Below are positions 21,497 through 64,000 of a stretch of DNA of 64,000 nt, in pieces; positions within the stretch are counted from its first letter, which is position 1; every line of letters begins with the position of its first letter. This stretch comes from Aquimarina sp. MAR_2010_214 (GTDB lineage Bacteria; Bacteroidota; Bacteroidia; Flavobacteriales; Flavobacteriaceae), in the NCBI RefSeq assembly GCF_002846555.1, contig NZ_PJMS01000001.1, forward strand, positions 2,170,001-2,234,000, given 5' to 3'. Made by a program: the position numbers and the translations under genes. The notes beneath the pieces were generated by a model, which saw only the letters and a program-made list of their open reading frames with translations, was not told the DNA's origin and did no database searches.

Positions 21497-22180
21497 TTAC
21501 CCTTTCCTCTGTACAACTTCAAATACTTTATTTCCATCACATTTTAATGTTTTAGAAGGGTATTTAAGTAATAAAGCATAATCGTGAGTTGCCATAAGTA
21601 TGGTGTTACCATTCTTGTTGATATCCCTTAAAACTTCCATAACCTCTACAGATGTCTGTGGATCCAGGTTTCCGGTAGGCTCATCAGCTAATATTAACTC
21701 AGGATCATTAAGTAATGCTCTTGCAATAGCAATACGTTGTTGTTCTCCACCAGATAATTGATATGGATATTTAAAATCCTTAGTTTTCATACCTACTTTA
21801 TCCAATACATCATCAATTTTACTGTCCATCCCTTTTTCATCGGTCCAACCTGTGGCTTTAAGGACAAATAAAAGATTGCCTTTTACCGTTCTGTCGTTAA
21901 GCAATTTAAAATCCTGAAATACAATACCTAATTTTCTACGTAAAAAAGGGATTTGATTTTCTTGTAGTGTAGGTAGATCAAAGTCAACAATACTACCTTC
22001 ACCTTCTAGTAAAGGAAGGTCCCCATACAACGTTTTCATAAAGCTACTTTTACCTGTACCAGTCTTACCAATAAGATATACAAAATCACCTTTATTTACT
22101 TCAACATTGACATCAGAAAGAATTAAACTTTCGCGTTGATAAATTGAAGCATTTTTGAGGCATAATACCGTATTGGACAT
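21497..22180 (-). CDS. ftsE: Cell-division ATP-binding protein FtsE
   Basis: FtsE is the ATPase of the FtsEX complex that controls peptidoglycan hydrolases at the septum. The 227-residue protein has Walker A (GKTGTGKSSF, residues 38-47), a Q-loop (GIVFQDFKLL), the signature LSGGEQQRIAIARAL near 142 and Walker B (ELILADEPTG). The ftsX gene is not adjacent, which is usual in flavobacteria as far as I recall. The assignment over other LolD-like ATPases rests on the FtsE-like FQDFKLLNDRTV region. Confidence 0.85.
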   Translation of the reverse strand: MSNTVLCLKNASIYQRESLILSDVNVEVNKGDFVYLIGKTGTGKSSFMKTLYGDLPLLEGEGSIVDFDLPTLQENQIPFLRRKLGIVFQDFKLLNDRTVKGNLLFVLKATGWTDEKGMDSKIDDVLDKVGMKTKDFKYPYQLSGGEQQRIAIARALLNDPELILADEPTGNLDPQTSVEVMEVLRDINKNGNTILMATHDYALLLKYPSKTLKCDGNKVFEVVQRKG

Positions 22181-28415: not shown

Positions 28416-28592
28416 TTTATTTTTTGACAGATTTTAAATACACTATGATATACCAATAAATAGGGATTGAAACACCCCTGTTTTCAGTACGTTAATTTTC
28501 ATCGTTTACGGTGTTTTGGATACACCTAAACCGCTATATCTTGCACAGTATTAGGAACAGTTTTATTACAACTTTTAATACTAGATATACAG

Positions 28593-28949
28593 ATGAAAAA
28601 GATTAATATAAATACGTACATAACTACATTTGTTTTACTTTTTGTTTTAGCAACAATATGTAGTTTAATTGGATATGCTAATAATGAAGGAACACTTGTT
28701 TTTACTCCTACAACAGAATTCTTACTAAAATTACATTCTATAGTTAACCTTCCTACAAATACTATAGGATACCCTGAATTGGTTAAGGGTGTTTACGGTG
28801 TTATAGGAGGATTAGCCCTTAATGTAATGTTATACTCTCTGGTATTTGAGCGTTTTGTTTTTTGTCTAAAAGCCTTGAAAAGAAGTGTTTCAAAAACTAA
28901 AAAAATAACTATAAAAGAAAAACAAGCTATTTTACTTATTGAAAAGTAA
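28593..28949 (+). CDS. Small uncharacterised membrane protein
   Basis: The 118-residue protein has two hydrophobic segments (residues about 9-28 and 65-95) and a basic C-terminal tail rich in lysine (KRSVSKTKKITIKEKQ). I do not recognise a family. A degenerate copy of the GACCTC palindrome lies just downstream. Confidence 0.6.
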   Translation: MKKININTYITTFVLLFVLATICSLIGYANNEGTLVFTPTTEFLLKLHSIVNLPTNTIGYPELVKGVYGVIGGLALNVMLYSLVFERFVFCLKALKRSVSKTKKITIKEKQAILLIEK

Positions 28950-49447: not shown

Positions 49448-50131
49448 TTATAACCCTTTTTTTAATTCTTCGATAGTTTTAGCCATCACAACTCCTGGTA
49501 ATTTAATAGGAGCAGCAACTTGAGCTAAGAAAGTACCTTTTACTTCACCAGTTTTATATGTTGTGAAACCAATTCGATATAATCCAGCAGTTAATGCTTT
49601 AAGAGGATCTCCCACTTCACTTTTATATCTCAATAAAGAGTTGTAACTACTTCCGCTAGGCTGCTTAGGCATTTCACTACTGTCATCATTACGCTCTAAA
49701 ACAGTCCAGTTAGCACTTTTTGCTGCTTCTGCACTAATTTTATCTTTGCTGATGATATCAGAACGTTCTAAAGTAATGTAGGTATCAAAGAAATCACTAG
49801 AACCTGCATTTTCTGTATATGCTGCAGATTGAGTAGCTCCTTTTACTTTATTTTTACCTACTGGCGACATCATTCTTATACCAAGCTCTGGAGCCACGGC
49901 AGGAACCCATACATAGATATAGTAAAATTTCTTACCATCTTTTACTTCATCTTCATTACCTGGTGCAGCATACCCAAGATAAGTTACGATATCTGTATAA
50001 GGTACTTTTATAGTTTTTGGACCTATCTTTTTTTCAGTTAGACCACCAAATTTTTTTAGTTTTTGCGCTTGGGCATCAACAGAAGTTCCTAAAGCAAATA
50101 TGCTTAGTAAAATTAAAATTTTTGTTTTCAT
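49448..50131 (-). CDS. LipL32 homologue, copy A
   Basis: The 227-residue protein is homologous to LipL32, the major surface lipoprotein of Leptospira. YIYVWVPAV (71-79), ELGIRMMSP (82-90), FFDTYITLER (114-123), YNSLLRYK (163-170) and GLYRIGFTTYKTGEVKG (183-199) align with LipL32 from memory. Residues recalled as its calcium ligands are conserved in identity and spacing: Asp116-Thr117, Asp149-Asp150 and Tyr163. Unlike LipL32 it has no lipobox Cys: the signal peptide ends SVDAQAQ, so it should be a soluble exported protein. Copy B at 57674-58357 has the same length and is about 80% identical. The function is unknown. Confidence 0.85.
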   Translation of the reverse strand: MKTKILILLSIFALGTSVDAQAQKLKKFGGLTEKKIGPKTIKVPYTDIVTYLGYAAPGNEDEVKDGKKFYYIYVWVPAVAPELGIRMMSPVGKNKVKGATQSAAYTENAGSSDFFDTYITLERSDIISKDKISAEAAKSANWTVLERNDDSSEMPKQPSGSSYNSLLRYKSEVGDPLKALTAGLYRIGFTTYKTGEVKGTFLAQVAAPIKLPGVVMAKTIEELKKGL

Positions 50132-50673
50132 AAAAATTGATTTGATTTAATTTAAGCGATAAATACACACACACTTTTTATCACTATAGGTTAGTGTTAC
50201 GATAATCTATGATTATCAATTTAATTACAAATATGAGAGTTTATTATTAGAATAGGATAACTTATTTGTATTTAATCATTCTATTCTAACAATGGATTTT
50301 GTGTTTCAGTAGGTTATTTAAAAAATAGGCTGCATTCATTCTGAATATGTAATATTAGTGATATTAAAAGATAAGGTTATGAGAACTTTTATCCATTTGA
50401 TCAGATAAAGAAGGTTTAAGTAGATTGGTCGTTTTTTAGATTATTGTAGAGAATTTTTGATGTTTTTGACTTCTTAATTTTGAATCTCATTTTTAGGTTT
50501 AAAAATGTATAGAGTTCTTTTATTTGTTCACTATTTCTATAAACTTTTCTTCTTCTAAATTAGGAATTTCTGGTGCGGGATCATAATGTCCGCTAAGAGT
50601 GGAAAGAATTCTCACTTTGTTCAGCTTTATGCACTAGAGCATACACAGGACTTAAACCTGTTTATTTTTATAG
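50132..50673. other. Intergenic region upstream of the LipL32 copy A gene
   Basis: The 542-base AT-rich stretch lies between the LipL32-like gene and the second IS. It contains the promoter region of the LipL32-like gene and the left 8-bp target duplication of the IS at its end. I see no ORF or RNA gene. Confidence 0.5.
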
Positions 50674-51725
50674 GCTAAGTTCTAATTAGAATATGTTTTA
50701 TCTTTACTTTATAAAAACGGAGAAATGATACCAGAAGATTTTAGAGATTTTTTCATTAGTTCATCGGCTTTGGTTCAATCAGAAATTGTTTCCACATTAT
50801 TGGAGATCTCTACTGAGGGTTCAGCCCTGATTGATAGCAATCAGAGTAAAGCCATAAGCTGTCCTCATTGTAAGTGCAATAAAATTAAGGCTAATGGTAA
50901 GCTCAAAGGAGTACAGCGCTATGTTTGTAATACTTGTCATAAAAACTTTAGTGAAACTACCGGTAAGTTCTGGTACAACCTCAAGAAGAAAGACAAAGTT
51001 AATCGTTATTTATTCTGTTTACTCTCTGGATATAGTATTCGCAAGAGTGCCAAAGAAACAGGGATTTCTATTCAGACTTCTTTTGATTGGAGGCACAAAT
51101 TACTTGTCTCCTTTGGGAGCGTAAGTGTGGATGAATTCCAAGGAATCCTAGAGAGTGATGATCTTTTCTTTGCTTACTCTGAAAAAGGGAATCGAAATTT
51201 GGATCGTCCTGCTAGAAAACGTGGCGCAAAGGCAAGTAAAGCTGGTCTCAGTAATGAAAAAGTAGCTGTGATAGCCAGTTGTGACCGATCAGGGAACAAA
51301 GATTTCAAAGTAGCTACCAGAGGTCGCATTAGTAAAAGTGACTTGGAGACTATATTACAAGGGAAGTTGGCTAAAGTAGAAACCCTTTGTAGCGACAGTC
51401 ACAGAAGCTATACTGCATTTGCAAAAGACAAGAAGGTAGCACACAAAAAATTTAATGCTTCGAAGGGTCAAAGAGCTGTTGACAAAATATATCACGTACA
51501 AAATGTGAATAATATGGATATGCGTCTAAGGAAATTTATGGAGCCCTTCAATGGAGTGGCAACAAAATACCTTCAGAATTATCTGAATTGGTTTTTAGTC
51601 TTAGAAAAAATAAAAAATTCAACCAGTAAAATGGCAACCGTAGCAGCTATAGCCTTTGCTTCCAATACTGCCTGGATGGAATTTAAAAACATAGTAGTAA
51701 ATAATATGCTTTTTAGAACTTAGCC
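50674..51725 (+). mobile_element. Complete IS1595-type insertion sequence, second type
   Basis: The 1052-bp element has perfect 13-bp inverted repeats, GGCTAAGTTCTAA at 50674-50686 and its complement at 51713-51725. It is flanked by the 8-bp direct repeats TTTTTATA at 50666-50673 and 51726-51733. It is unrelated in sequence to the IS at 32126-33084. The exact ends point to recent insertion into the decayed duplicate module. Confidence 0.92.
50725..51723 (+). CDS. IS1595-family transposase
   Basis: The 332-residue transposase has an N-terminal zinc ribbon (CPHCKCNKIKANGKLKGVQR, then CNTCHKNF, residues 46-73). A helix-turn-helix region follows (GYSIRKSAKETGISIQTSF), and then an ISXO2-like catalytic domain with VSVDEFQGILESDD near 132, TLCSDSHRSYTAFAK near 220, and a C-terminal NYLNWFLVLEK. 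The frame is intact. Its TAG stop at 51721-51723 lies inside the right terminal repeat. Confidence 0.92.
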   Translation: MIPEDFRDFFISSSALVQSEIVSTLLEISTEGSALIDSNQSKAISCPHCKCNKIKANGKLKGVQRYVCNTCHKNFSETTGKFWYNLKKKDKVNRYLFCLLSGYSIRKSAKETGISIQTSFDWRHKLLVSFGSVSVDEFQGILESDDLFFAYSEKGNRNLDRPARKRGAKASKAGLSNEKVAVIASCDRSGNKDFKVATRGRISKSDLETILQGKLAKVETLCSDSHRSYTAFAKDKKVAHKKFNASKGQRAVDKIYHVQNVNNMDMRLRKFMEPFNGVATKYLQNYLNWFLVLEKIKNSTSKMATVAAIAFASNTAWMEFKNIVVNNMLFRT

Positions 51726-51775
51726 TTTTTATATCATACTTCGAAAGGTACTATCTTTTAATAACTATCTTCATG

Positions 51776-51870
51776 TTATATCATTTTTTTCAATTCAGGA
51801 AGTTTGGTATCAATTTCGGCTTGTCTTTTCTTACATTCCTGAGACTTATTGTTTTGGGGATGATTAGCCA
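51776..51870 (-). pseudogene. C-terminal fragment of the 52663/53574 family
   Basis: The minus strand encodes MANHPQNNKSQECKKRQAEI, then DTKLPELKKMI and a stop. The neighbours end NHPESNKSVECKKRQTEI / NTKLPELEKMM. The fragment is in frame with the SIMPL remnant that follows, so a deletion seems to have fused the two. Confidence 0.85.
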
Positions 51871-52085
51871 TTTTTTGAGCTTTTGTTTTTACATCTTCAA
51901 TCTCAGCGAGCGTTAAAGCAGTCCATTCTGTCTTGTTTTTTCTTTGGTGGTTACCTCGACCAGTATGGTTGTTGGATCATTCATTTTCTGTTTAAGGATT
52001 TTGACCATCTCTTCTTTAGAAGTTGTTGTGTAAATGTGGTACTAAACATCATTTATTTCTGAGAGAAGACATATACAATTGATAG
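51871..52085 (-). pseudogene. Remnant of a SIMPL-domain gene
   Basis: The DNA matches the intact SIMPL gene at 58405-59016 over about 200 bases. Encoded traces are MNDPTTILVEV, TEWTALTLAEIEDVKTKA and an eroded start. A one-base shift near the TTKEK region breaks the frame. Its gene order relative to the membrane-protein gene at 52094 equals that of the intact module at 58405-59901. Confidence 0.8.
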
Positions 52086-52093
52086 GGAACATT

Positions 52094-52528
52094 CTATGTG
52101 AAGAGTAAGAAAGATGCTATAATCTTCCAGCAGCTAATAATGATTCCTAAAACGCTTAACTTATTTTGTTTTAATGCTGATTTTTTTCTTAATTGACTTG
52201 CTTTTTCTTTTGTAGCTTTATTCTTGGATAAGAAAAACTTTTTTATTGAGGCAAAGACTAACATGAAACCTAATGCAGCTTCTATAATATTCTCTGCTAA
52301 TAAGGTGATCCACCAGATAGGAAATGTTGTAATCCATTCTAGATTCAAAATTGTCGAAATGACACCCCATGCACCCCAGAAACAGAATGGAAGTCCGATC
52401 ATAAATCTGATCACGCTTGGCAACGGTTCGATTTTTTCTAAAAATTGTTTTGTTTTTGATGTCTTTGATAGCAATAGTGATGGTGCCGCTATAATACTTA
52501 ATATAATTAATGTGATTCCTCCAATCAT
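52094..52528 (-). CDS. Small membrane protein, paralogue of 59482-59901
   Basis: The 144-residue protein has about four membrane helices and a basic linker (KNKATKEKASQLRKKSALKQ). Its paralogue at 59482 shares LIILSIIAAPSLLLSK, FCFWGAWGVIS and IIEAALGFMLVF. I do not recognise a named family. The gene is the membrane-protein end of the duplicated module and remains intact although its neighbours have decayed. Confidence 0.75.
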   Translation of the reverse strand: MIGGITLIILSIIAAPSLLLSKTSKTKQFLEKIEPLPSVIRFMIGLPFCFWGAWGVISTILNLEWITTFPIWWITLLAENIIEAALGFMLVFASIKKFFLSKNKATKEKASQLRKKSALKQNKLSVLGIIISCWKIIASFLLFT

Positions 52529-52662
52529 GGTTTTTAGTTTTAAGGTGTTAGTACTTATTTTTTGATCCCTGTTTTGAAACCTAAAACTCAGAATATAAAG
52601 ATGAGAGATATAGGTTTTGAGGTTATACTTAAAAAAATTATCTTTTAAGAGCTATCCTTATA

Positions 52663-53451
52663 TTACATCATTTTTTCTAACTCAGGAAGCTTGGTGTTAA
52701 TTTCGGTTTGTCTTTTCTTGCATTCCACAGATTTATTACTTTCGGGATGATTGGCAAGAAAATTGTTGAGAGCCATTTGCATATCTTTGAGGTATCTTAT
52801 TTTTAGAGATATTTTTTCTGCTTTTTGGTATTTTTGCCATGCTTCTTCAACATATTCATATTCTAATTCTTGTTGTTCTAATTGTTTAATTTCTTTCCAT
52901 TTTGGTAATAAATCCGCTAATTTTTGAGAATTTGGAAAAGCTTTAATCGCATCTTCAAGATCGGGAACAGCAGCATACGCTGGCTTTAAGTTAGTGTCAG
53001 AAAAGAAAGTGATAGCTTGTTGTTCAGAATCTCCAAGGAAAACAGTAAGAATTTCATCCCATCCATTCAAAATAAATAAAAAACTGCCATCAGGTATTGT
53101 CTTATCAGTAGTAAGCTTATACATGTTTTCTTTTTCTAAAGGTTCTATACTGAAATTTATAGTTTCATTAAACCCACCTAAAGCTAATTTTCTTGCTTTG
53201 ACTACAAGAGATGAACTTTTAAAATTATTCCAGTATAGTATAAGCTCTACCTTATTATTTCCTCTTAGTATCGATGGAGCCTTGTTAAGATCTTTAAACT
53301 CTGGGAAGTTGGTGTTATTGAGTGTTACAAATTTGATGTAGTCATCATTACTTTTAATATATACTCCAAAATCTTTTAGTTTTTGTGCACAAATATTAAA
53401 ACTACTTATTAGTGTAAGAACTGTGATTAAGATTAAATTTTTTGCTTTCAT
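52663..53451 (-). CDS. Secreted protein of unknown family, paralogue of 53574-54302
   Basis: The 262-residue protein has a signal peptide ending NICAQ and continues KLKDFGVYIKSNDDYIKFVT. The mature start (QKLKDFG) resembles that of the two LipL32 homologues (QKLKKFG). The N-terminal 150 residues are strand-rich. A helical C-terminal half follows, with the motifs LEDAIKAFPNS, EYVEEAWQKYQ and NHPESNKSVECKKRQTEI. I do not recognise the family. The paralogue next door lacks the signal peptide, so the two copies are probably in different compartments. Confidence 0.7.
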   Translation of the reverse strand: MKAKNLILITVLTLISSFNICAQKLKDFGVYIKSNDDYIKFVTLNNTNFPEFKDLNKAPSILRGNNKVELILYWNNFKSSSLVVKARKLALGGFNETINFSIEPLEKENMYKLTTDKTIPDGSFLFILNGWDEILTVFLGDSEQQAITFFSDTNLKPAYAAVPDLEDAIKAFPNSQKLADLLPKWKEIKQLEQQELEYEYVEEAWQKYQKAEKISLKIRYLKDMQMALNNFLANHPESNKSVECKKRQTEINTKLPELEKMM

Positions 53452-53573
53452 CTTTTTTTAATTTTATAGGAGTATTATATAAAGCTTATTATTACATCTT
53501 TATATGATATTAAAACGGTTAATGCGTATAATACCTTATTTCCATATGAAATAGACCCATCGTGTTTTTGCTG

Positions 53574-54302
53574 TCACATCATTTTTTCTAACTCAGGAAG
53601 TTTGGTGTCAATTTCGCCTTGCCTTTCTTTACATTCTTCAGATTTATTACTTTCAGGGTGATTAGCAAGAAAACCATTAAGTGCCATTTGCATATCTTTA
53701 AGGTATCGTATTTTTAGTGAAATTTTTTCAGTTTCCTGATATTTTTGCCATGCTTCTTCAACATATTTATATTCTAATTCTTGCCGCTCTAATTGTTTAA
53801 TTTCTTTCCATTTTGGTAATAGATCTATTAATTCCTGAGAATTAGGAAAAGCTTTAATTGCATCTTCCAGATCAGGAACAGCAGCATATGCTGGCCTTAA
53901 ACTAGTATCAGAAAAGAAAACGATGGCTTCTTGTTCACTATCTCCAAGAAAAACGGTTAAGATTTCATTCCATCCTGTCGAAATAAATAAAAAACTGCCA
54001 TCAGGTATTGTCTTATCGGTAGTAAGCTTATACATGTTTTCTTTTTCTAAAGGCTCTATATTGAAATTTATATCTTCATTAAACCCTCCCAAAGCTAGTT
54101 TTCTTACTTGTGCTAACAGGGATCCACTTTCAAAATTTTGTAGATATACAATAAGCTCTATTTGATCATTTTCTCTTAGTACCGATGGAACCTTGTTAAG
54201 GTGTTTAAACTCTGGAAAGCTGGTGTTGTTGAGTGTCACAAATGCCAGATAACGATCTTTACTTTTAATATGTACTCCGAATTGTTTGATATTATTTTCC
54301 AT
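53574..54302 (-). CDS. Cytosolic paralogue of the 52663 protein
   Basis: The 242-residue protein starts MENNIKQFGVHIKSKDRYLA and lacks a signal peptide. The rest is about 80% identical to the upstream-facing paralogue at 52663 (shared KLALGGFNE, LTTDKTIPDGSFLFI, YAAVPDLEDAIKAFPNS). The ATG at 54302 is preferred over a TTG eight codons upstream. Its 3' third is also present as a fragment at 51776-51870. The family is unknown. Confidence 0.72.
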   Translation of the reverse strand: MENNIKQFGVHIKSKDRYLAFVTLNNTSFPEFKHLNKVPSVLRENDQIELIVYLQNFESGSLLAQVRKLALGGFNEDINFNIEPLEKENMYKLTTDKTIPDGSFLFISTGWNEILTVFLGDSEQEAIVFFSDTSLRPAYAAVPDLEDAIKAFPNSQELIDLLPKWKEIKQLERQELEYKYVEEAWQKYQETEKISLKIRYLKDMQMALNGFLANHPESNKSEECKERQGEIDTKLPELEKMM

Positions 54303-54414
54303 GATTATTTTTGTTTTCAAAAACAAGATGACCCGATTTCACCATTCAAGTAATGTAATGTTGTGGGTTTCTGATGAATCTCAGGCCATCTATACATAAA
54401 ACTTTGGTTTTCTT

Positions 54415-55485
54415 TTAAAAATCGATGTCGTCTCCTGCTTTTTCTGAAGCAAATTCGGCATTATATTTTTCCATTAATTCTCCCATTTTTAATGCCATGC
54501 GAGTATCTGTAGCCATTTTGGGAGTCCAATGCATACCTACAGAACTCCAATCGGTAACTGTAAGTCCATATTCTTGTAAGATTGAAGCAGCATCTTTTCC
54601 TTGTGCCGCTCCCATATTTTGATGACACATAACTTTAATATAAAGTTCGAAATCTTCATAAATATCATTGTTTCCGGCAGGAGAACCAGTTTCAGATTCT
54701 TGATTGGTTCCTGCATCTGCAAATTTGCCAATGTTCGAATTCATAAAAGCATCACCATATACCTTAGAAATCGCAAAAGTTGTATCCTGAGACATTCTTG
54801 CAGTCCATTCTGCAGATACTTCATCCCAGATTGGTTTTTCTGTTCCTACAATTTTAAGTACTTCTTCTAAATCCATACCACCAGCTATTTTTGCATTGGC
54901 AGCAGCCCAGGTTTCCATATCAATACCATTTATAGGATCTAATAATCCACCAGCTTCTGCTGCTTCTATATGAGTATCCATTTGAGCATCTAGCTTGGCT
55001 TTTTGCTCTTTTAAAAAGTTGTCAGCATCGTCGTATGCTTTTTCTTCAGCAGAATCTAGTAACGATATTCCCCATAAAAAATGATCTTCATCAGAGAATC
55101 CATATTCATGAATCTGATCATTAAATTCTGAAAGGTCACTATTTTTAAGGTTTTTGATATCATTAAGAATATTGGTAGCATCATCATGAGAAAGCTCACG
55201 AACCTGCTCTGGCATTTCGAGTTTATTTACATACCCATATCTTCTGATACCGGACTTAAATTGGTTATTAAGATCCACCCAATGTGGTTCATTTAAGTTT
55301 GGTTTAAATGGCCAAACATCATAATCTTCATCATCTTCAAGATCCTGAAAAGAAAGATCTGCACATGGCCATGTTGTGTAATCATAATTATGCCAATCCA
55401 TACGACCTAGGATCGTTAGGTACCCTCTATATTCGTCTTTTTGCTTTCCTGAAACGTCTTGATGTAATTCATTAACTGTACTCAT
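54415..55485 (-). CDS. Acidic protein with an internal duplication (DUF6620-like)
   Basis: The 356-residue protein is soluble and very acidic. Two copies of a 65-residue block occupy the second half: about residues 170-235 (W-x-AxxNAKIAGG, WDEVSAEWTARMSQDT) and about 280-345 (CHQNMGAAQGKD, WSSVGMHWTPKMATDT). The shared pattern is W, five or so residues, then W-x-x-[RK]-M-x-x-DT. The N-terminus has WHNYDYTTWPCADLSF. The name DUF6620 is recalled and unchecked. The gene is the last of a minus-strand operon that starts at 57563. Confidence 0.65.
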   Translation of the reverse strand: MSTVNELHQDVSGKQKDEYRGYLTILGRMDWHNYDYTTWPCADLSFQDLEDDEDYDVWPFKPNLNEPHWVDLNNQFKSGIRRYGYVNKLEMPEQVRELSHDDATNILNDIKNLKNSDLSEFNDQIHEYGFSDEDHFLWGISLLDSAEEKAYDDADNFLKEQKAKLDAQMDTHIEAAEAGGLLDPINGIDMETWAAANAKIAGGMDLEEVLKIVGTEKPIWDEVSAEWTARMSQDTTFAISKVYGDAFMNSNIGKFADAGTNQESETGSPAGNNDIYEDFELYIKVMCHQNMGAAQGKDAASILQEYGLTVTDWSSVGMHWTPKMATDTRMALKMGELMEKYNAEFASEKAGDDIDF

Positions 55486-55519
55486 AATGTATAATTTTTA
55501 AAGATTTATTTTCTGTTTT

Positions 55520-56557
55520 TTAGAATTGAGATAATATTTCCTGTTTCTTCAGTTTGTATTCCTGTTCGTCGATTAGGCCAGCATCAAATATTTTCTTAAG
55601 TTTTTCTAATTTTTGTACTGGGTCGTCGTTTTGAGGTTGAGATTCAGGTTGAGGAGGAGTATTCTGTTGAGGTGTAGATTGTTGACCTTGATTGTTCATC
55701 ATATTTCCTAGCATTTGACCCATTCCTAGTCCAGCTCCCATTTGCATACCGATATTACCACCACCTTCGTTTTTTGCCATATTTTTTAATGCTTCGAGTT
55801 GTTGATAATCCTGGTAGCTTACCCCAAGTTCTTTCATTGCCTGGGCTTCGGCACTCATATCTGTGATTCGACCAATTCTTGTTTTAGTTTCTTCATCAAA
55901 ACTGGTTCCTTCTATTCTAAAGTCAAGTAGTTCAAAACCTAGCTCATTAAAGATTTGCGCACTCGAATTCTGAGAGAATGCTGCAATTTCATTACGATGT
56001 TTATCAATTTCTACATAGCTAAATGAAGCGTTGGCAAGAAAATCACTGATAGGTTGGGTAATTCTGGATAGAATAACTTTTTGTATCGCTTTTACAGGAT
56101 AGTAGTCGTCACCTGCAATAACGTTGATGAAAAAATCAACTGGTTTAGTAATTTTGAAAGAAAAATTACCAAAAGAACCTAATCCCACAGGGAAGTTATA
56201 AACGGGATCTTTATAGGTAATAGGAGAAGGGGTTCCCCACCGTATATTTTGCATTTCTGCTTTTCTATAGAAAAAGATACCTACTTTATGGGAAGACTCA
56301 AAGGTATACATGATACTTTTGATGGTCGTCCAAAAAGGAATATTACCCGTTTTAAGATCGTAAAGCCCTTCTTCTTCAAAAACGCCTTCTACTTTGCCCT
56401 CGTATACAAAAAGACATCCTTGTCCGGGCCCTACGATCAATTTTGAAGCATTTTTAATTTCGTCCCCGTTTTCTGTCCATTTTTCAAAAAGAGTTTCGGG
56501 TTTTGGGTTTTGCCATTCGATTACCGAACGTAATTGACTTCTAAATGAGTTTGACAT
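55520..56557 (-). CDS. SPFH-domain protein with C-terminal SHOCT motif (YdjI-like)
   Basis: The 345-residue protein has an SPFH domain of the YdjI or virion-core type (residues about 20-230: VIEWQNPKPETLFEKW, then VGPGQGCLFVYEGKVEGVF, and RIGRITDMSAEAQAMKELG). A Gly/Met/Gln-rich linker follows near 265-310. It ends with a SHOCT motif (LEKLKKIFDAGLIDEQEYK). SPFH proteins form membrane-associated oligomers. B. subtilis YdjI belongs to an operon with a PspA homologue and zinc-ribbon proteins, which is a useful comparison. It sits 20 bases downstream of the zinc-ribbon gene at 56578. Confidence 0.87.
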   Translation of the reverse strand: MSNSFRSQLRSVIEWQNPKPETLFEKWTENGDEIKNASKLIVGPGQGCLFVYEGKVEGVFEEEGLYDLKTGNIPFWTTIKSIMYTFESSHKVGIFFYRKAEMQNIRWGTPSPITYKDPVYNFPVGLGSFGNFSFKITKPVDFFINVIAGDDYYPVKAIQKVILSRITQPISDFLANASFSYVEIDKHRNEIAAFSQNSSAQIFNELGFELLDFRIEGTSFDEETKTRIGRITDMSAEAQAMKELGVSYQDYQQLEALKNMAKNEGGGNIGMQMGAGLGMGQMLGNMMNNQGQQSTPQQNTPPQPESQPQNDDPVQKLEKLKKIFDAGLIDEQEYKLKKQEILSQF

Positions 56558-56577
56558 ATTTTTTTCTTTTAGGATTA

Positions 56578-57342
56578 CTAGTAGTTAGTTAAAAATGCAA
56601 TTTTAGCTTTAAGATCTTTTTCATACCTGTCTTTATAATCTGGTATGATTTCGATTCTTTTTTTTAAGTAGGTTTCTACATATTTTTGATATAGAGGGGT
56701 TAATTCATCGGTACCATACGTTTCTGAATCTTGTATATAATTTTGAAACTTAAGTTCTTCGTAATGCAGATAATATTCTAAAGCGGCCTCTTCTCCAAGA
56801 GCATGAATAGCAAAATGTTCGATGTTTCTGGCTTTAGTTCCTGGTTCGAACGTATTTACTGTCTGACAATATTCACAAGTGCTGTAATAGGATCTAAAAA
56901 AATTATCTTTTACCGGGAGTTTAGCTTGACATTGGGTACAACAAAAATCTTTGGATAAAGTATTCTTTACTTCTTTCAGTAATTTTTTTGCAGCATCTGC
57001 GAAAATTTTAACCTCGTAGGATTTTAGTTTTTGTTCAAGTTCAAATTTTGTTAAATATCCTTTATCTCTTTCTTGTATAAATTTTTTAGAACCAAATTCT
57101 GCTCCTGCATCTTCAAAGGCTTCTTCAACCTTATCTTCCCATGTACTGTCTATTTTCCAGATAAGCTCATTGGCTTGAGAATAGATTCCTTGCCAGGCGT
57201 TATGAAATGTAGTAGTTTCAAAATCGGTGGCTTCAAATAACAGTGGTAATACAGCTTCTGTTTTCTCCAATATCTCCTCGAATCGATCTTTGATTTTTTT
57301 AAGGAAACCGTCCCATCTGTTTTGTGTTTCACTGAATGACAT
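56578..57342 (-). CDS. Helical zinc-ribbon protein of the SPFH operon
   Basis: The 254-residue protein is mostly helical, with one zinc ribbon in the middle: CCTQCQAKL near residue 138 and CEYCQTVNTF near 160. The flanking helices are charged (for example KSYEVKIFADAAKKLLKEV and the C-terminal YKDRYEKDLKAKIAFL). I do not recognise a family. Its position between the small zinc ribbon and the SPFH gene, with spacings of about 20 bases, suggests that the three proteins act together. Confidence 0.7.
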   Translation of the reverse strand: MSFSETQNRWDGFLKKIKDRFEEILEKTEAVLPLLFEATDFETTTFHNAWQGIYSQANELIWKIDSTWEDKVEEAFEDAGAEFGSKKFIQERDKGYLTKFELEQKLKSYEVKIFADAAKKLLKEVKNTLSKDFCCTQCQAKLPVKDNFFRSYYSTCEYCQTVNTFEPGTKARNIEHFAIHALGEEAALEYYLHYEELKFQNYIQDSETYGTDELTPLYQKYVETYLKKRIEIIPDYKDRYEKDLKAKIAFLTNY

Positions 57343-57359
57343 ATTTTTAAAAGATTTTT

Positions 57360-57563
57360 TTAGTAGAATTGGTCTCCACAGAAATCACAATATTTTAGAT
57401 CTGTGTCTTCTGGTCTTGCTGCTCCGCAGCTTTTACATTTTTTGGTTTCAAGACCTGCATTTGTCTTTTTATATTTTTTTGTAGAAGAGAGCGCGTTGGC
57501 CAGAATATCATCGAGAAGATTTTTTTTTTCTTCTTTAGAATTTTGTTTATCGTTTTCTTGCAT
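57360..57563 (-). CDS. Small zinc-ribbon protein, first gene of the SPFH operon
   Basis: The 67-residue protein has a charged N-terminal half (KEEKKNLLDDILANALSS) and a C-terminal zinc ribbon CKSCGAARPEDTDLKYCDFC (residues 43-62), as found in many partner or adaptor proteins. It starts the operon that runs through 54415. The 5' end is preceded by the terminator of nothing on its own strand, so its promoter should lie in 57564-57603. Confidence 0.75.
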   Translation of the reverse strand: MQENDKQNSKEEKKNLLDDILANALSSTKKYKKTNAGLETKKCKSCGAARPEDTDLKYCDFCGDQFY

Positions 57564-57603
57564 CTTAAAATTGGTGGTTTAGAGAGAAGACTAAAAAAAA
57601 AGA

Positions 57604-57646
57604 GGTTATTCCCATATTTTTTGGTCTAAAAAACATAGGAATAACC
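57604..57646 (-). terminator. Terminator after LipL32 copy B
   Basis: GGTTATTCC and GGAATAACC form the outer arms, with AAAAAA/TTTTTT pairing inside. It lies 28 bases after the stop of the gene at 57674-58357. Confidence 0.75.
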
Positions 57647-57673
57647 GTAGGTGCTACTATTCCAATTTACGTT

Positions 57674-58357
57674 TTATAGCCCCTTTTTTAAGTCTTCGAT
57701 AGTTTTTGCCATTACTACTCCTGGTAATTTGATAGGAGCCGCAACTTCTGCTAGAAAAGTACCTTTTACCTCACCAGTTTTGTATGTAGTAAAACCGATA
57801 CGATACAATCCAACAGTTAGTGCTTTAAGAGGATCACTTGCTTCACTTTTATATCTTAATAGAGAGTTATAACTGCTTCCACTTGGTTGCTTTGGCATCT
57901 CACCGCTGTCATCGTTACGCTCTAAGGTAACCCAGTTAGCACTTTTTACTGCACCCTCGTTAATATTATCTTTACTAACGATATCTGAACGTTCTAAAGT
58001 AATATAGGTGTCAAAATAATCAGTTGACTTTGCATTTTCTGTATATGCTGCTGATTTTATTGCTTTTTTGATTTTAGTTTTTCCTACAGGTGACATCATT
58101 CTCACACCTAGTTCTGGAGCAACAGCAGGAACCCATACATAAATGTAATAGAATTTCTTACCGTCTTTTACTTCATCTTCGTTACCAGGAGAGGCATATC
58201 CCATATAAGATACAATATCTGTATAAGGCACTTTTATAGTTTTAGGTCCAATCTTTTTTTCGGTTAAACCGCCAAATTTCTTTAGTTTTTGTGCTTGAGT
58301 GTTGAAACTGCTTCCAAGAGCAATGACTAAGACTAAGGCTAAAATTTTTGTTTTCAT
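57674..58357 (-). CDS. LipL32 homologue, copy B
   Basis: The 227-residue protein is collinear with copy A and about 80% identical, without gaps. It has the same LipL32 blocks and the same candidate calcium residues (Asp116-Thr117, Asp149-Asp150, Tyr163). The signal peptide ends SFNTQAQ, again without a lipobox Cys. Variation is concentrated in the signal peptide, residues 92-112 and 131-145. Copy B heads the intact module that continues with the SIMPL, zinc-ribbon and membrane-protein genes on the same strand (reading order starts upstream at 59901). Confidence 0.85.
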   Translation of the reverse strand: MKTKILALVLVIALGSSFNTQAQKLKKFGGLTEKKIGPKTIKVPYTDIVSYMGYASPGNEDEVKDGKKFYYIYVWVPAVAPELGVRMMSPVGKTKIKKAIKSAAYTENAKSTDYFDTYITLERSDIVSKDNINEGAVKSANWVTLERNDDSGEMPKQPSGSSYNSLLRYKSEASDPLKALTVGLYRIGFTTYKTGEVKGTFLAEVAAPIKLPGVVMAKTIEDLKKGL

Positions 58358-58404: not shown

Positions 58405-59016
58405 TTATTCAATTGTAAAGGTTACGGTTACAAGATGTTTTTGTATTTCATCTGGTTTATACATATTTATGTATTGCGTTCTAGAATTAGGGTTTTCAAT
58501 TTTTATAATATGCCCTAATTTTTTATTGAGAAGATCTGCAGTTTTTTTAGCTTTCACTTTAGCGTCTTCAATTGCAGTGTGTGTTAAAGCAGCCAATTCT
58601 GTATTATTTTTTTCTTTGGCTTTTGCTTCGACCTGTATGATTGTTAAACCATTCATCTTCTGTTTAATGATTTCTACCATCTCTTCTTCAGAAGTTGTTA
58701 CATAATTGTAATGCGAAATTTCACTTACTTGTGAGTAAGAAGAATACAGCTGATAGAGGACATTCTTTTGAAACTTACTAAAATCAACTCCTATGGATTT
58801 TAACTTATCACTGTATAATTGTTTAACCTGTGATAAGCTTTTGGGTTCGAGTTGTTGATATCCATCTGCAACAATTTGCTTTAGCGAAATGGTAAGAGAA
58901 TAGGTATTAACTTCTATTTGCTTATTGGCTTCTCCTATTATCGTTATAGTTTTAGTATTTTCTTGCGATATAACAGATGTAACTGTTAGGAGTATTATAA
59001 AAACGATTTTTTTCAT
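58405..59016 (-). CDS. SIMPL-domain periplasmic protein
   Basis: The 203-residue protein has a signal peptide (MKKIVFIILLTVTSVISQ) and a SIMPL (DUF541) domain: TITIIGEANKQIEVNTYSLT near 23, the LTIIQVEAKAKEKNNTEL segment near 122, and AIEDAKVKAKKTADLLNKKL near 148. SIMPL proteins are periplasmic or outer-membrane proteins of loosely defined function in stress or signalling. A decayed copy lies at 51871-52085. It is 47 bases upstream of the LipL32 copy B gene and probably co-transcribed. Confidence 0.87.
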   Translation of the reverse strand: MKKIVFIILLTVTSVISQENTKTITIIGEANKQIEVNTYSLTISLKQIVADGYQQLEPKSLSQVKQLYSDKLKSIGVDFSKFQKNVLYQLYSSYSQVSEISHYNYVTTSEEEMVEIIKQKMNGLTIIQVEAKAKEKNNTELAALTHTAIEDAKVKAKKTADLLNKKLGHIIKIENPNSRTQYINMYKPDEIQKHLVTVTFTIE

Positions 59017-59047: not shown

Positions 59048-59389
59048 TTACCTTAAATAAGATAGAATGGTAAGTAAAGAAATACCTGTTAATAAAATGG
59101 CTAACCCTATGAAGTGATACCATGGAGTTTTGATATCATTATTTTTTGAATATTCAAAACTCTGTATCAATTCCTGACTTTGTATCTCATTTTTTTCAAA
59201 TGCTCCTTTACAATGACCGCAAACTGAGTATACTTTTTTTCCGATGGGAAAGAATGGTATCCAAAACACATGAACATATTTTTTATATCCCTGTATCCAC
59301 ATATTATTTTCTGTATTACAATACGGGCAATTCCCTCCTTCTAATTTTTTAGGTTGAATAGTTGAAGAACCTGTTCCAAATATGATCAT
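59048..59389 (-). CDS. Zinc-ribbon membrane protein
   Basis: The 113-residue protein starts with a zinc ribbon of the zinc_ribbon_15 type (FGTGSST, CPYCNTENN, HVFWIPFFPIGKKVY, CGHCKGAF), with Cys pairs near 21-24 and 57-60. One membrane helix lies near residues 92-110. Such proteins are common and of unknown function. It sits between the SIMPL gene and the small membrane-protein gene and has no counterpart in the decayed module. Confidence 0.8.
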   Translation of the reverse strand: MIIFGTGSSTIQPKKLEGGNCPYCNTENNMWIQGYKKYVHVFWIPFFPIGKKVYSVCGHCKGAFEKNEIQSQELIQSFEYSKNNDIKTPWYHFIGLAILLTGISLLTILSYLR

Positions 59390-59481: not shown

Positions 59482-59901
59482 CTAGTAAGGTAAAAATGAT
59501 AACACGATCATCAAAGCACCTATGATTAAACCTAAAACTCCTAGTTTACCTTGTTTAGGTGCTAATTTTTCTCTTAACTGGTTAGCTTTTTCTTTGGCTG
59601 CTTCATTTTTGGATAATACAAGTTTATTGATCATACCAAAGCCTAACATGAAACCTAGGATTGCTTCTATCGCATTTCCTGCTAAATAAACTGACCATCT
59701 AATAGGAAATGTTGCTAACCAACCTATACCTAAGATAGAACTGATTACTCCCCATACACCCCAGAAACAAAATATAAGCCCAATCCAACCTTGATATGGT
59801 TCGATTTTTTCTAAAAGCTCTTTTGCATTTGGTTTTTTAGATAATAATAATGATGGTACTGCTATAATACTTAATAAAATTAATGTGATTCCCCAAGTCA
59901 T
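59482..59901 (-). CDS. Small membrane protein, paralogue of 52094-52528
   Basis: The 139-residue protein has about four membrane helices and a basic linker ([20 protein letters not shown]). It is clearly homologous to the protein at 52094-52528 (see shared segments there). It is the first gene of the intact four-gene module. The function is unknown. Confidence 0.75.
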
Positions 59902-60137
59902 GATTTTTAGTTTTAAAGGGTTAGTACTTATTTTTTCTTTTGTGATTTTATAAATGACTTCTTATATCTATGTTTTTGATACTTGTTTTGAAGACCATAA
60001 AATCACAGTACAAAGATGAGAGAGAAGCATCAGGATGGAAACACCTTTTCTAGTGAAAAAGCATACCCTGAAAACAGGGGGACGTTTACATGTGGTAAAA
60101 CCCTACTTATAGTGAGTATTAATTCTAATGGAAAATA

Positions 60138-60167: not shown

Positions 60168-63100
60168 ATGAGAAATATAAAAAGGAATAATAAGACTTTA
60201 TCATATATAGTACTGTGTACAATCTATTACTTTATAAATAGCAATAGTTTTGCCCAGCAGTTATACCCGGCAAGTTTTGATACTACTACTCTTAATGGTA
60301 TTAACGGGTTTAGAATACCGGGGATTGATCCAGAATCTCAGTTTGGGGCTGAAACTACTTTCATTGGAGATATTAATAGTGATGGCTTCGAGGACATTGG
60401 CATTGGAGTGAATAATGCAGATATTGATGGATTAGATCTAGCTGGTGCTGCATATATTATTTTTGGGACAAATGTTGGTTTTCCTGCTACATTTGATATT
60501 ACTACTCTTGACGGGACTAATGGATTTGTTGTTAAAGGAATAGTTGGCAGTACTCGAATGGGGAGTTCTGTTGAAGGAGTAGGAGATATTAATGGGGATT
60601 CAATTGATGATTTGATTATTCGCGCTTCAGGAATCGCTTTAGTAATATATGGAAAACCTATTGGAGACCCATTTGATGCTGAATCAAATATTAATGATAT
60701 TAATGGAATAAATGGTTTTAGAATTGAAATGCGAGGAAGTGAAATTAGAGCTCTTGGAGATGTGAATGGTGATGGTAGAAATGATTTTGTTATAGGACAC
60801 CCAAGTTTTTTTTCAGTCAGTGCTGGAATTGTATTTGGAAGATCAGAAAATTTCCCTTTAAGTATTGATCTTTCATGGTTAGATGGAATAAATGGTTTTA
60901 GAACCAGTTCATTTAGTAGCTCAAGAGCTGGCTTTAAAGTTGGAGGAGCAGGAGATATTAATCAAGATGGCTATAATGACATCATAATAGGAGAATGGTC
61001 TAGTGGAGGAACTCTGGCAACAGGAGGACAAAGGACACGTTTACTTTATGGAAGAGCATCTTTTGACCCATTAGAGGATTTGAATACTCTGGATGGAACA
61101 AATGGTTTTGCTATTGATAACTCGGGAGGTGGTTTTCTGGTATTTACAGGAACTTTGGGTGATATTAATAGTGATGGAGTTGATGATTTTTTCTCAGAAC
61201 AAAGTGCAATTTTTGGGAAAGAACGAACTGAACCACGTTTTCCTTCTTATATACCATTAAGTAGTATTGAAGATAATACTCTTGGGTTTAGAATTCCTGG
61301 ATTTTTGACTTCAGCTTCAGTAGGGGATGTAAATAAGGATGGAATTAATGACTTTATAGCTTGTTATGGGGGAAGAGGATTAGACCATGATGCCTATGTC
61401 ATATTTGGAAGTACTACAGGATTTCCTGACCCTATAGATGAAAGTACTCTTGACGGGACTAATGGATTTGTTATTCCTGGCCTTAGAACATCTAATATTG
61501 GAAGGCCTGTAAGTGGTGATGGTGATGTTAATGGGGATGGGATTGCTGACTTTATCGTTGGGAGCCCCAATGAAATACCGGAAGGAAGTACAGAACGAAC
61601 TGGAGAAGCATATGTGATTTTTGGTGGAGATCATTATGCAATACCATTAAATACTGGATACCCTCAAGCAATTGATGAAACTATATCTGGATTTACACTG
61701 GTTGTTAATGGACCAGAAACAGGAACGATACATTATGTTGTTTATCCAGGTAATTTTTCTGGAACTCCAGATCATGATAATATTCTAAATGGAACCGGAG
61801 CGACTACAAATGGAAATTTTCTAATGAATATTGCCAATACAGATGTCGAAGAAACAATTTCTTCACTAGCAGCTGGTACTACATATGATGTATATCTATT
61901 CTTAGAAGATGGTGTGGGAAATCAAGGGGAAATTTATCATATAGATAATGTAAGAACACTTAGCCCTACCCCTACAGTAACCCTTTCAGTTTCGTCAAAT
62001 ACAGGTACAGAAGCAGCTGGTACAGTAATAACGGTAACGGCTACTTCTTCGGCAGCTGTAGTAGGTGCTCAAACTATTGATCTTGCTACCACAGGAACCG
62101 GAATTACATCTTCAGATTTCATTTTAAGTAATGCGACTATTGCTATTACTGATGGGATGACCACAGGTACAGTAACTTTTACTATTGTTGATGATGCTCT
62201 TGTAGAAGGTACAGAAACAGCTACACTAACGATTAGTAATCCATCTACAGGTATTACCCTTGGAACGACTACAGCGCAAGATGTTGTTATTACGGATAAT
62301 GATTCAGCACCTATCCCTACAGTGAGTCTTTCAGTTTCGTCAAATACAGGTACAGAAGCAGCAGGGACAGTAATAACAGTTACAGCTACTTCTTCGGCAG
62401 CTGTAGTAGGCGCTCAAACTATTGATCTTGCTGCCACAGGAGTAGGAATTACGGCTTCAGATTTTACCTTAAGTAATAGTACCATTACTATTCCTGATGG
62501 TATGACCGCAGGTACAGTGACTTTTACTGTTGTTGATGATACTGTTGTAGAAGGTACAGAAACGGCAACATTAACGATTAGCAATCCGTCTACAGGTATT
62601 ACCTTAGGAACAACTACAACGCAAGATATTGTTATTACGGATAATGATTCAGCACCTATCCCTACAGTGAGTCTTTCAGTTTCGTCAAATACAGGTACAG
62701 AAGCAGCAGGGACAGTAATAACAGTTACAGCTACTTCTTCGGCAGCTGTAGTAGGTGCTCAAACTATTGATCTTGCTACCACAGGAGTAGGAATTACAGC
62801 TTCAGATTTCACCTTAAGTAATGCGACTATTACTATTCCTGATGGGATGACCACAGGTACAGTATCTTTTACGGTTCTAGATGATGCTCTTGTAGAAGGG
62901 ACAGAGACGGCTACACTAACGATTAGTAATCTATCTACAGGTATTGCTCTAGGTACGACTACAACGCAAGATGTTGTTATTACAGATAATGATTCAGCAT
63001 CTATCCCTACAGTTAACCTTTCAGTTTCATCAAATGCAGGTACAGAATCTGCTGGTACAGTAATAACGGTAACGGCTACTTCTTCTTCAGCTGTAGTAGG

Positions 63101-64000
63101 TGCTCAAACTATTGATCTTGCTACCACAGGAACCGGAATTACCGCTTCAGATTTCACCTTAAGTAATACGACTATTACTATTCCTGATGGGATGACCACA
63201 GGTACAGTAACTTTTACGGTTCTAGATGATGCTCTTGTAGAAGGTACAGAAACAGCTACACTAACGATTAGTAATCCATCTACAGGTATTGTTCTAGGAA
63301 CGACTACAACGCAAGATGTTGTTATTACAGATAATGATTCAGCACCTATCCCTACAGTCAATCTTTCTGTTTCAACAGATACAGGTACAGAAGCAGCAGG
63401 GACAGTAATAACAGTTACAGCTACTTCTTCGATAGCCGTTGTAGGCGCTCAGACTATTGATATTGCTGCCACAGGAGTAGGAATTACGGCTTCAGATTTT
63501 GCCTTAAGTAATACGACTATTACTATTCCTGATGGGATGACTACAAGTACAGTAACTTTTACTATTGTTGATGATGCTCTTGTAGAAGGTACAGAAACAG
63601 CTACACTAACGATTAGTAATCCATCTACAGGTATTACCCTTGGAACGACTACAGCGCAAGATGTTGTTATAGAAGATAATGACGACCTTGTAATATGTAC
63701 TATAAAAGCAGGGGAAGATCAAGAAATTACACAAGGGCAGGAAATACAGTTAAATGCAATCGCTTCTGATAATGGAACATATGTTTGGACACCTTCAACT
63801 GGTCTTACCAATGCTAATATTGCTAATCCTGTAGCAAGTCCAAATCAAACGACAACCTATACGGTTCTTTTTACAAGTGATCAGGGATGTATTGAAGAAG
63901 ATACGGTTACAATTTATGTAGAAGCACAACCAGAAGATCAAACACGATATGGTTTTTCACCAGATGGTGATGGAATCAATGAATATTGGGAGATTTATAA
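60168..64000 (+). CDS. Giant secreted protein: FG-GAP propeller, Calx-beta-like repeats, gliding-type C-terminus (partial)
   Basis: The frame stays open from the ATG at 60168 to the window end (1277 codons, 3' end missing). A signal peptide (ending SNSFAQ) is followed by seven FG-GAP calcium loops (for example GDINSDGFEDIGIG, GDVNGDGRNDFVIG, GDVNGDGIADFIVG), enough for one integrin-like seven-bladed propeller (residues about 30-490). A beta-sandwich linker (about 495-600) precedes five 115-residue Calx-beta-like repeats (602-1176) with D-x-LVEGTETATLTISN and ITDND motifs. A PKD/Ig-like domain follows. The last residues (FSPDGDGINEYWEIY) open the gliding-motility-associated C-terminal domain used by the type IX system. 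It is probably a surface adhesin. Confidence 0.9.
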   Translation, partial: MRNIKRNNKTLSYIVLCTIYYFINSNSFAQQLYPASFDTTTLNGINGFRIPGIDPESQFGAETTFIGDINSDGFEDIGIGVNNADIDGLDLAGAAYIIFGTNVGFPATFDITTLDGTNGFVVKGIVGSTRMGSSVEGVGDINGDSIDDLIIRASGIALVIYGKPIGDPFDAESNINDINGINGFRIEMRGSEIRALGDVNGDGRNDFVIGHPSFFSVSAGIVFGRSENFPLSIDLSWLDGINGFRTSSFSSSRAGFKVGGAGDINQDGYNDIIIGEWSSGGTLATGGQRTRLLYGRASFDPLEDLNTLDGTNGFAIDNSGGGFLVFTGTLGDINSDGVDDFFSEQSAIFGKERTEPRFPSYIPLSSIEDNTLGFRIPGFLTSASVGDVNKDGINDFIACYGGRGLDHDAYVIFGSTTGFPDPIDESTLDGTNGFVIPGLRTSNIGRPVSGDGDVNGDGIADFIVGSPNEIPEGSTERTGEAYVIFGGDHYAIPLNTGYPQAIDETISGFTLVVNGPETGTIHYVVYPGNFSGTPDHDNILNGTGATTNGNFLMNIANTDVEETISSLAAGTTYDVYLFLEDGVGNQGEIYHIDNVRTLSPTPTVTLSVSSNTGTEAAGTVITVTATSSAAVVGAQTIDLATTGTGITSSDFILSNATIAITDGMTTGTVTFTIVDDALVEGTETATLTISNPSTGITLGTTTAQDVVITDNDSAPIPTVSLSVSSNTGTEAAGTVITVTATSSAAVVGAQTIDLAATGVGITASDFTLSNSTITIPDGMTAGTVTFTVVDDTVVEGTETATLTISNPSTGITLGTTTTQDIVITDNDSAPIPTVSLSVSSNTGTEAAGTVITVTATSSAAVVGAQTIDLATTGVGITASDFTLSNATITIPDGMTTGTVSFTVLDDALVEGTETATLTISNLSTGIALGTTTTQDVVITDNDSASIPTVNLSVSSNAGTESAGTVITVTATSSSAVVGAQTIDLATTGTGITASDFTLSNTTITIPDGMTTGTVTFTVLDDALVEGTETATLTISNPSTGIVLGTTTTQDVVITDNDSAPIPTVNLSVSTDTGTEAAGTVITVTATSSIAVVGAQTIDIAATGVGITASDFALSNTTITIPDGMTTSTVTFTIVDDALVEGTETATLTISNPSTGITLGTTTAQDVVIEDNDDLVICTIKAGEDQEITQGQEIQLNAIASDNGTYVWTPSTGLTNANIANPVASPNQTTTYTVLFTSDQGCIEEDTVTIYVEAQPEDQTRYGFSPDGDGINEYWEIY
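61971..63695 (+). repeat. Five tandem 345-bp repeats in a coding region
   Basis: Units begin at 61971, 62316, 62661, 63006 and 63351, each with CCTACAGT and TTTCAGTTTC-type starts. All are exactly 345 bp (115 codons) and very similar. Each encodes one Calx-beta-like domain. Equal length and high DNA identity point to recent expansion or homogenisation. Confidence 0.9.

Follow-up and report, generated by a model that had tools for sequence, protein, structure and literature searches.

A conserved promoter element and a putative linked two-component system at a LipL32-superfamily locus of Aquimarina sp. MAR_2010_214

Introduction

LipL32 of pathogenic Leptospira is lipidated at Cys20, and its calcium ligands are D132, T133, D164, D165, and Y178, as given in passages of PMC5566480. 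Table 2 of PMC4080168, published in 2014, lists orthologues from Cellulophaga, Formosa, and Ulvibacter, and flavobacterial LipL32 homologues as such are already known. Here we analyzed a stretch of 64,000 nucleotides of Aquimarina sp. MAR_2010_214 (NZ_PJMS01000001.1, positions 2,170,001–2,234,000; hereafter the window, on which the feature coordinates are based), which encodes two LipL32-superfamily proteins named lip1 and lip2. What is new at this locus is its setting: lip2 stands at the end of an apparent operon, which is preceded by a promoter element conserved across flavobacterial genera and linked to a histidine kinase (HK) and a response regulator (RR). We consider it probable that lip2 is exported without a lipid anchor, has a jelly-roll fold with a calcium site, and is one output of the linked, putative two-component system.

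FimR of Porphyromonas gingivalis is a LuxR-type regulator. The FimS–FimR system governs surface structures, and the signal of the FimS sensor is described as unknown in passages of PMC11053733.

Results

lip1 and lip2 belong to the LipL32 superfamily

The genes of lip1 (49448–50131) and lip2 (57674–58357) are both read from the minus strand (the opposite strand is rich in stops at these positions), and each encodes 227 amino acids. The two proteins are identical at 191 of 226 residues (85%). An earlier note on this DNA had proposed that they are LipL32 homologues, and the profile search agrees: both cover the whole Pfam profile PF12103 (Lipl32), with an E-value of 4.7e-81 and 271 bits for lip1 and 5e-82 and 274 bits for lip2, against a curated cut-off of 25 bits. 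By this profile evidence lip1 and lip2 are true members of the superfamily. The NCBIfam equivalog NF038394, which represents LipL32 proper, gave 119 and 118 bits, below its 300-bit cut-off. At E 0.001, 1049 LipL32 homologues were found, and the nearest relatives that carry names are mostly from Aquimarina, the best with 92% identity.

A sequence search of the PDB, carried out for lip2 only, returned the LipL32 entries 2zz8, 3frl, and 2wfk at E ~3e-30, the sole further match being at chance level (E 0.43). The AlphaFold2 model of lip2, built from a 54-sequence alignment, reached a mean predicted local distance difference test (pLDDT) score of 86.4. When this model was compared by Foldseek, the top eight matches were all LipL32 chains (E 4e-19 to 2e-14, template modelling (TM) scores by query length of 0.64–0.69), and the first match outside LipL32 appeared at E 5e-3. 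The best of them was the calcium-bound 2wfk (E 4e-19, TM 0.69 by query length), so that the structure prediction proposed as a check in the earlier note came out on the side of LipL32. The predicted fold of lip2 is the LipL32 jelly roll.

The correspondence of calcium ligands was also as first read: D116, T117, D149, D150, and Y163 of both proteins align with D132, T133, D164, D165, and Y178 of LipL32, all five positions being kept. Over 240 homologues (two listings of 120 matches each, all rows used), D132, D164, and D165 are conserved in 240, T133 in 239, and Y178 in 237. The calcium site is therefore a family constant and does not single out the lip1/lip2 pair. A third LipL32 copy was considered at 21497–22180 and rejected; this open reading frame (ORF) of 227 amino acids looks by eye like an ABC-type ATPase with Walker motifs, and the genome holds two PF12103 matches.

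Export signals point to non-lipidated proteins

Inspection of both sequences found no cysteine at the cleavage site of lip1 or lip2, as the earlier note had said. PMC5837995 and PMC10653852 describe the Q-rule of Bacteroidetes, in which signal peptidase I (SPI) exposes an N-terminal glutamine. By regular expression, an SPI-type site of this kind (for example, cleavage between A-Q-A and Q-K-L) was present in 119 of 120 near relatives among the matches listed, in 41 of 106 members of a more distant set, and in none of 14 Leptospira proteins. The corresponding counts for a lipobox were 1/120, 17/106, and 13/14, and the fourteenth Leptospira protein has a cysteine at the lipobox place by eye. In the single lipobox match among the near relatives, the cysteine falls within a hydrophobic stretch and the same protein also has an AQK site; several of the 17 distant matches likewise sit within a hydrophobic stretch. 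An absent lipobox is thus usual in this group, because 119 of the 120 listed near relatives have the Q-rule-like site. Going by these signals, lip1 and lip2 are most likely exported by Sec and SPI and non-lipidated, and the database name ‘Lipl32 family lipoprotein’ appears misleading for the near Bacteroidota members.

lip2 closes an apparent operon behind a conserved promoter element

On the minus strand, lip2 is the final gene of a set in the order TM139 (59482–59901), zinc ribbon (59048–59389), SIMPL (58405–59016), and lip2, with gaps of 92, 31, and 47 nt. Such an arrangement suggests that the four genes are transcribed as one operon. The first gene encodes TM139, a predicted four-helix membrane protein of 139 amino acids with four hydrophobic peaks, whose model is helical (pLDDT 82). 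It has no Pfam family above cut-off, only scattered sub-threshold matches, and a fold comparison with the PDB gave nothing at E 0.001; of 120 listed TM139 relatives, 4 carry a precomputed assignment to the more recent Pfam accession PF27362. The zinc-ribbon protein (113 amino acids; PF17032, E 6e-8) and the SIMPL (DUF541) protein (203 amino acids; PF04402, E 1.6e-6) are both above cut-off. After lip2, the terminator scan picked up a terminator-like hairpin of 19 pairs with a T run (57604–57646, minus strand), a class of site that is no commoner over the whole region than in shuffles (5 vs 4.5).

The element upstream of TM139 lies on the same strand and consists of palindrome 1, CCCTGTTTTCAGGG (14 bp, 60066–60079), palindrome 2, CACTAGAAAAGGTG (14 bp, 60042–60055), with 24 bp between the starts of the two palindromes, and the box CATCTTTG (60011–60018), whose TTTG begins 27 nt past palindrome 2. 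We take this box to be −7-like from the Bacteroidetes −7 consensus. Visual inspection of upstream regions from some Aquimarina also suggests a possible third, weaker half-palindromic site, CACTATAAGTAGGG (60101–60114, minus strand). Palindrome 1 is the sole exact match within the window, and at up to three mismatches the count there equals chance. In the own genome, a pattern search at up to three mismatches gave 8 matches vs 5 for the reversed control, which leaves the exact site as the only safe one.

The layout of CCCTGTTTTCAGGG, 10 nt, a palindrome like CACTAGAAAAGGTG, and the TTTG box recurs before TM139 in most flavobacterial genera sampled. A position weight matrix (PWM) was built from 20 Aquimarina sites (18 distinct) and run on both strands of 37 loci labelled non-Aquimarina (679 kb), a test set that is not perfectly clean because L015, labelled Bacteroidia, is Aquimarina-like by synteny. 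Its best site fell directly before TM139 in 26 of the 37 loci and before LipL32 in 4 (L051, L052, L059, and L060), scoring above 0 in 27 of these 30 placed sites. Of 58 sites, 55 have TTTG 27 nt after palindrome 2, while one has it at 26 nt and two at 28 nt. Across 66 Aquimarina genomes, the pattern at up to one mismatch matched 42 times in 32 genomes, and its reversed control not at all. For 29 of the 42, a LipL32 match follows on the same strand within 2.6 kb, a share that is partly circular because the pattern was derived from such promoters. All 30 readable sites among the 42 carry TTTG at 27 nt (chance 2.3% for three positions); seven of the 30 are not beside LipL32, and two of these seven stand before genes whose products have a lipobox as judged by eye. 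Member genes thus appear to share an operator–promoter, as would be expected of a regulon under an HK–RR pair.

The open literature searched contained no description of the operon or its promoter (subscription journals being outside its scope), and the papers matching the motif string CTGTTTTCAGGG there have titles that concern other matters.

Further copies of the element were noted. A good copy occurs in L141 (7949–8383, near C1:4614478 of the own genome), with palindromes 25 apart and TTTG at 27 nt, and precedes a predicted lipoprotein of 144 amino acids. A weak copy, CCCTGTTTTCAGTA...TTTTCATCGTTTACGGTG, at 28476–28513 on the plus strand of the window (PWM 8.5, no TTTG at 27 nt) precedes a 118-amino-acid ORF (28593–28949, plus strand), possibly a further regulon gene. 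In two Aquimarina genomes (L159 and L160), the same element precedes a LipL32 gene of a diverged subtype (PF12103 scores of 127 and 143 bits), with an HK–RR pair adjacent.

A histidine kinase and a LuxR-type regulator are linked to the operon

The RR (C1:2235311–2235955 of the own genome) and HK genes are located just beyond the window end on the minus strand, the same as the operon; between them and the operon lie two genes of the opposite strand, FG-GAP/Calx-beta/CHU_C and PorP/SprF. The kinase comprises an N-terminal hydrophobic segment, tetratricopeptide repeats (TPRs), a second hydrophobic segment at ~453, and HisKA_3/HATPase_c domains, and the regulator comprises Response_reg and GerE (LuxR-type) domains. 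With the Nonlabens RR as query against the own genome, the linked RR is 74% identical over full length, and the next of 34 matches reaches 36%, which supports orthology of the two regulators. The Nonlabens kinase is 38% identical to the linked HK over 36–703 (full length). Elsewhere in the own genome, a 68-amino-acid ORF (L144, 8277–8483, near C1:4154300) has 76% identity over 66 residues to the DNA-binding part of the Nonlabens regulator and adjoins bacteriocin-like transport genes.

Among the Aquimarina genomes, the regulator is present wherever the element is: it occurs in 32 of 32 element-bearing genomes, and the element in none of 15 genomes lacking the regulator (Fisher 7e-6; for the 58 more complete genomes, 32/32 vs 0/10, 1e-4). 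Two of the 32 (G177 and G633) have element and RR without LipL32. In 199 genomes of the family, with the RR counted at E up to 1e-60, the RR is found in 18, TM139 in 19, and both in 15 (Fisher 2e-16; 1.9e-15 excluding the own genome), and the RR accompanies 5 of the 8 LipL32-bearing genomes (Fisher 1.6e-4; 1.1e-3 excluding the own genome). The three LipL32-bearing family genomes without the RR are also without TM139, and no element was found in their loci L007, L008, and L125 (best PWM −32, −39, and −27). RR and TM139 form the core of the association, and LipL32 is its frequent but optional member. TM139 as an obligate partner of LipL32 was ruled out, 14 of the 19 family genomes with TM139 having no LipL32.

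The same association is visible in the neighbourhoods of LipL32 genes, for which ORFs were called and loosely clustered in all 72 distinct loci among the best 80 of 151 stretches. TM139 was found in 58 of the 72, HK in 46, RR in 46, and both HK and RR in 44; SIMPL occurred in 30, the zinc ribbon in 23, DUF6620 in 22, and SPFH in 21. Several of these loci end at contig ends, and loose clustering may admit paralogues. The gene order varies from HK–RR–TM139–SIMPL–LipL32 in Winogradskyella, Lacinutrix, Formosa, and Algibacter to TM139–LipL32–HK–RR in Flavivirga, and RR–HK is divergent from LipL32 in Reichenbachiella and Cyclobacteriaceae.

The duplication seems old within Aquimarina

The own genome (5.98 Mb, one contig) has exactly two PF12103 matches, lip1 and lip2. 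Within the genus, PF12103 occurs in 42 of 66 genomes, with at least two matches in 20 (one of which counts a partial match), and within the family in 8 of 199, own genome included. In the phylum sample it occurs in 1 of 395, the own genome only, so this sample is uninformative for LipL32; TM139 was found there in 7 of 395. The earlier note had rightly described a duplicated pair among genes of several families but overstated how exceptional it is, given the orthologues tabulated in 2014, the 20 genus genomes with at least two matches, and the SPI site usual in listed near relatives.

In a 58-row tree, lip1 groups with copies adjacent to ykgJ and lip2 with TM139-adjacent copies of other Aquimarina, with moderate support (Shimodaira–Hasegawa-like approximate likelihood ratio test values of 84–94, many open forks). 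The two clades are common to several Aquimarina species, and judging from this tree the duplication therefore seems old within the genus. Signs of gene conversion between lip1 and lip2 did not go beyond a hint. In a quick tree built from 79 of the 240 rows, with long branches flagged and an arbitrary root, the 14 Leptospira proteins form one cluster (99), closer to a 19-row group than to the Bacteroidota rows.

Surrounding genes in the window

Beyond the lip2 hairpin, the next gene group on the minus strand opens with a small ORF of 67 amino acids with a CxxC-type cysteine ring (57360–57563, no Pfam match), which is kept beside LipL32 in Aquimarina loci. It is followed by a 254-amino-acid protein with CxxC pairs (56578–57342, no Pfam family above cut-off), an SPFH (Band_7_1) protein of 345 amino acids (55520–56557; PF13421, E 8e-37), and a DUF6620 protein of 356 amino acids (54415–55485; PF20325, E 2e-13). 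This set of SPFH, DUF6620, and two cysteine-pair proteins (54415–57563) also adjoins TM139 without LipL32 in locus L121. At 52663–54326 on the minus strand lie two similar ORFs of 262 and 250 amino acids with no Pfam family above cut-off; they are 86% identical at the DNA level over 300 nt, and just one of them has a signal-like N terminus. A third partial copy lies near 51774. A defence role was rejected after a PADLOC scan of six proteins (SPFH, the 254-amino-acid protein, DUF6620, the 250-amino-acid protein, TM139, and lip2) matched nothing.

TM144 (52094–52528, minus strand), a paralogue of TM139 with 62% identity, has no element upstream according to the PWM scan of locus L145 (best −24.9). 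The same scan gave none for lip1, and none was seen on reading the region upstream of that gene. A transposase gene of 999 bp (50725–51723, plus strand) lies between lip1 and the rest, and identical copies occur in L142 and L144 of the own genome. The FG-GAP/Calx-beta/CHU_C gene, which starts at 60168, contains five direct repeats with 345-bp spacing at 61965–63645 (plus strand).

Discussion

We propose that the HK–RR pair beside the locus is the most likely controller of the TM139–lip2 operon. The TPR-containing kinase would respond to an envelope signal by way of its extracytoplasmic TPR domain, and the LuxR-type regulator would bind the palindromes and activate the operon. The LipL32-like protein may then act in the periplasm or at the surface, perhaps together with the small membrane protein TM139, and lip1 would be an old paralogue outside the element-bearing promoter.

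Several observations weigh against this proposal. The PWM missed in 7 of the 37 test loci (L024, L030, L070, L074, L075, L079, and L082), and three placed sites (L047, L053, and L057) fall short of the top score reached by 20 column-shuffled PWMs (−7.6). At up to one mismatch, the element was not found in 12 of the 42 LipL32-bearing Aquimarina genomes; it was likewise not found before two LipL32 genes from genomes with the RR (L122 in G021 and L129 on contig 3 of G019), or before the third TM139 of the own genome (L120). LipL32 is absent from most TM139-bearing family genomes, as counted above. When the comparison is confined to the kinase core, two further kinases of the own genome come closer to the Nonlabens HK (50% and 47%) than the linked HK does over full length (38%). 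Moreover, the co-occurrence partly reflects linkage by descent, because element, RR, and TM139 are often physically linked.

It is possible, if clearly less so, that lip1 and lip2 act at the surface as adhesins to algal or animal matrix, a role suggested for PtlL32 of Pseudoalteromonas tunicata; such a role concerns the activity of the proteins and could coexist with the regulatory proposal. PMC4080168 supplies the one mutant phenotype found for an environmental member: without PtlL32, matrix binding and algal colonisation are reduced. The protein regions considered in that paper are conserved here, and the names of many hosts mark them as marine surface dwellers. However, there is no lipobox and no type IX C-terminal domain was recognised, only PF12103 being above cut-off, so that display at the surface is not evident.

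Somewhat more doubtful is that the palindromes serve another regulator, with the linked HK–RR controlling something else and being a neighbour by descent. All parts are indeed linked in one locus, and the two Aquimarina genomes with element and RR but no LipL32 fit either reading. This alternative has to contend with the presence of this RR in all 32 element-bearing genus genomes and the absence of the element from all 15 RR-less ones, and with the three LipL32-bearing family genomes without the RR, whose loci show no element.

A recently acquired mobile island is very unlikely. The transposase between lip1 and the rest, with its two further identical copies in the own-genome stretches examined, and the patchy distribution of the family would fit it, but the same flanking genes occur in many Aquimarina, the lip1 and lip2 clades are common across species (with moderate support), and plasmid carriage was rejected, with no match in 72,556 plasmid records. 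That CCCTG-TTTT-CAGGG with its T run is an intrinsic terminator rather than an operator is scarcely credible: the terminator scan picks up 60079–60066, but the second palindrome and the TTTG box follow at fixed distance, and in the window there is nothing to terminate because the far-side gene is divergent.

Control of the operon by the linked HK–RR pair thus stays our preferred reading. A wider extension of it, which we put forward as an unlikely conjecture, is that the family was ancestrally a non-lipidated calcium-site envelope protein working with TM139 under the HK–RR pair, possibly with feedback on the TPR domain of the kinase, and that the lipid anchor and host-facing role in Leptospira were later additions.

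The poorly understood LipL32 family gains a testable control circuit from the apparent operon, its precise promoter, and the sensor–regulator pair linked to them. A marine relative opens ordinary genetics on what the LipL32 fold does and on what induces a LipL32-like protein, and the fixed-geometry motif could be used to find further members of an envelope regulon.

Comparison with known systems

The linked pair resembles FimS–FimR in layout, likened by description, passages of PMC11053733 describing an HK with a periplasmic TPR sensor; it differs in output, which for FimS–FimR is FimA fimbriae. PtlL32 and the flavobacterial orthologues of PMC4080168 belong to the same superfamily, and passages of that paper on them do not mention an operon, promoter, regulator, or missing lipobox. 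LipL32 of pathogenic Leptospira (2wfk, 2zz8, and 3frl) is only ~37% identical to the lip proteins over the alignment, the cut-off of NF038394 not being reached by the latter, and the Leptospira members carry a lipobox (13 of 14 by regular expression), unlike lip1 and lip2 with their SPI site; with them it shares the superfamily, the predicted fold, and all five calcium-ligand positions.

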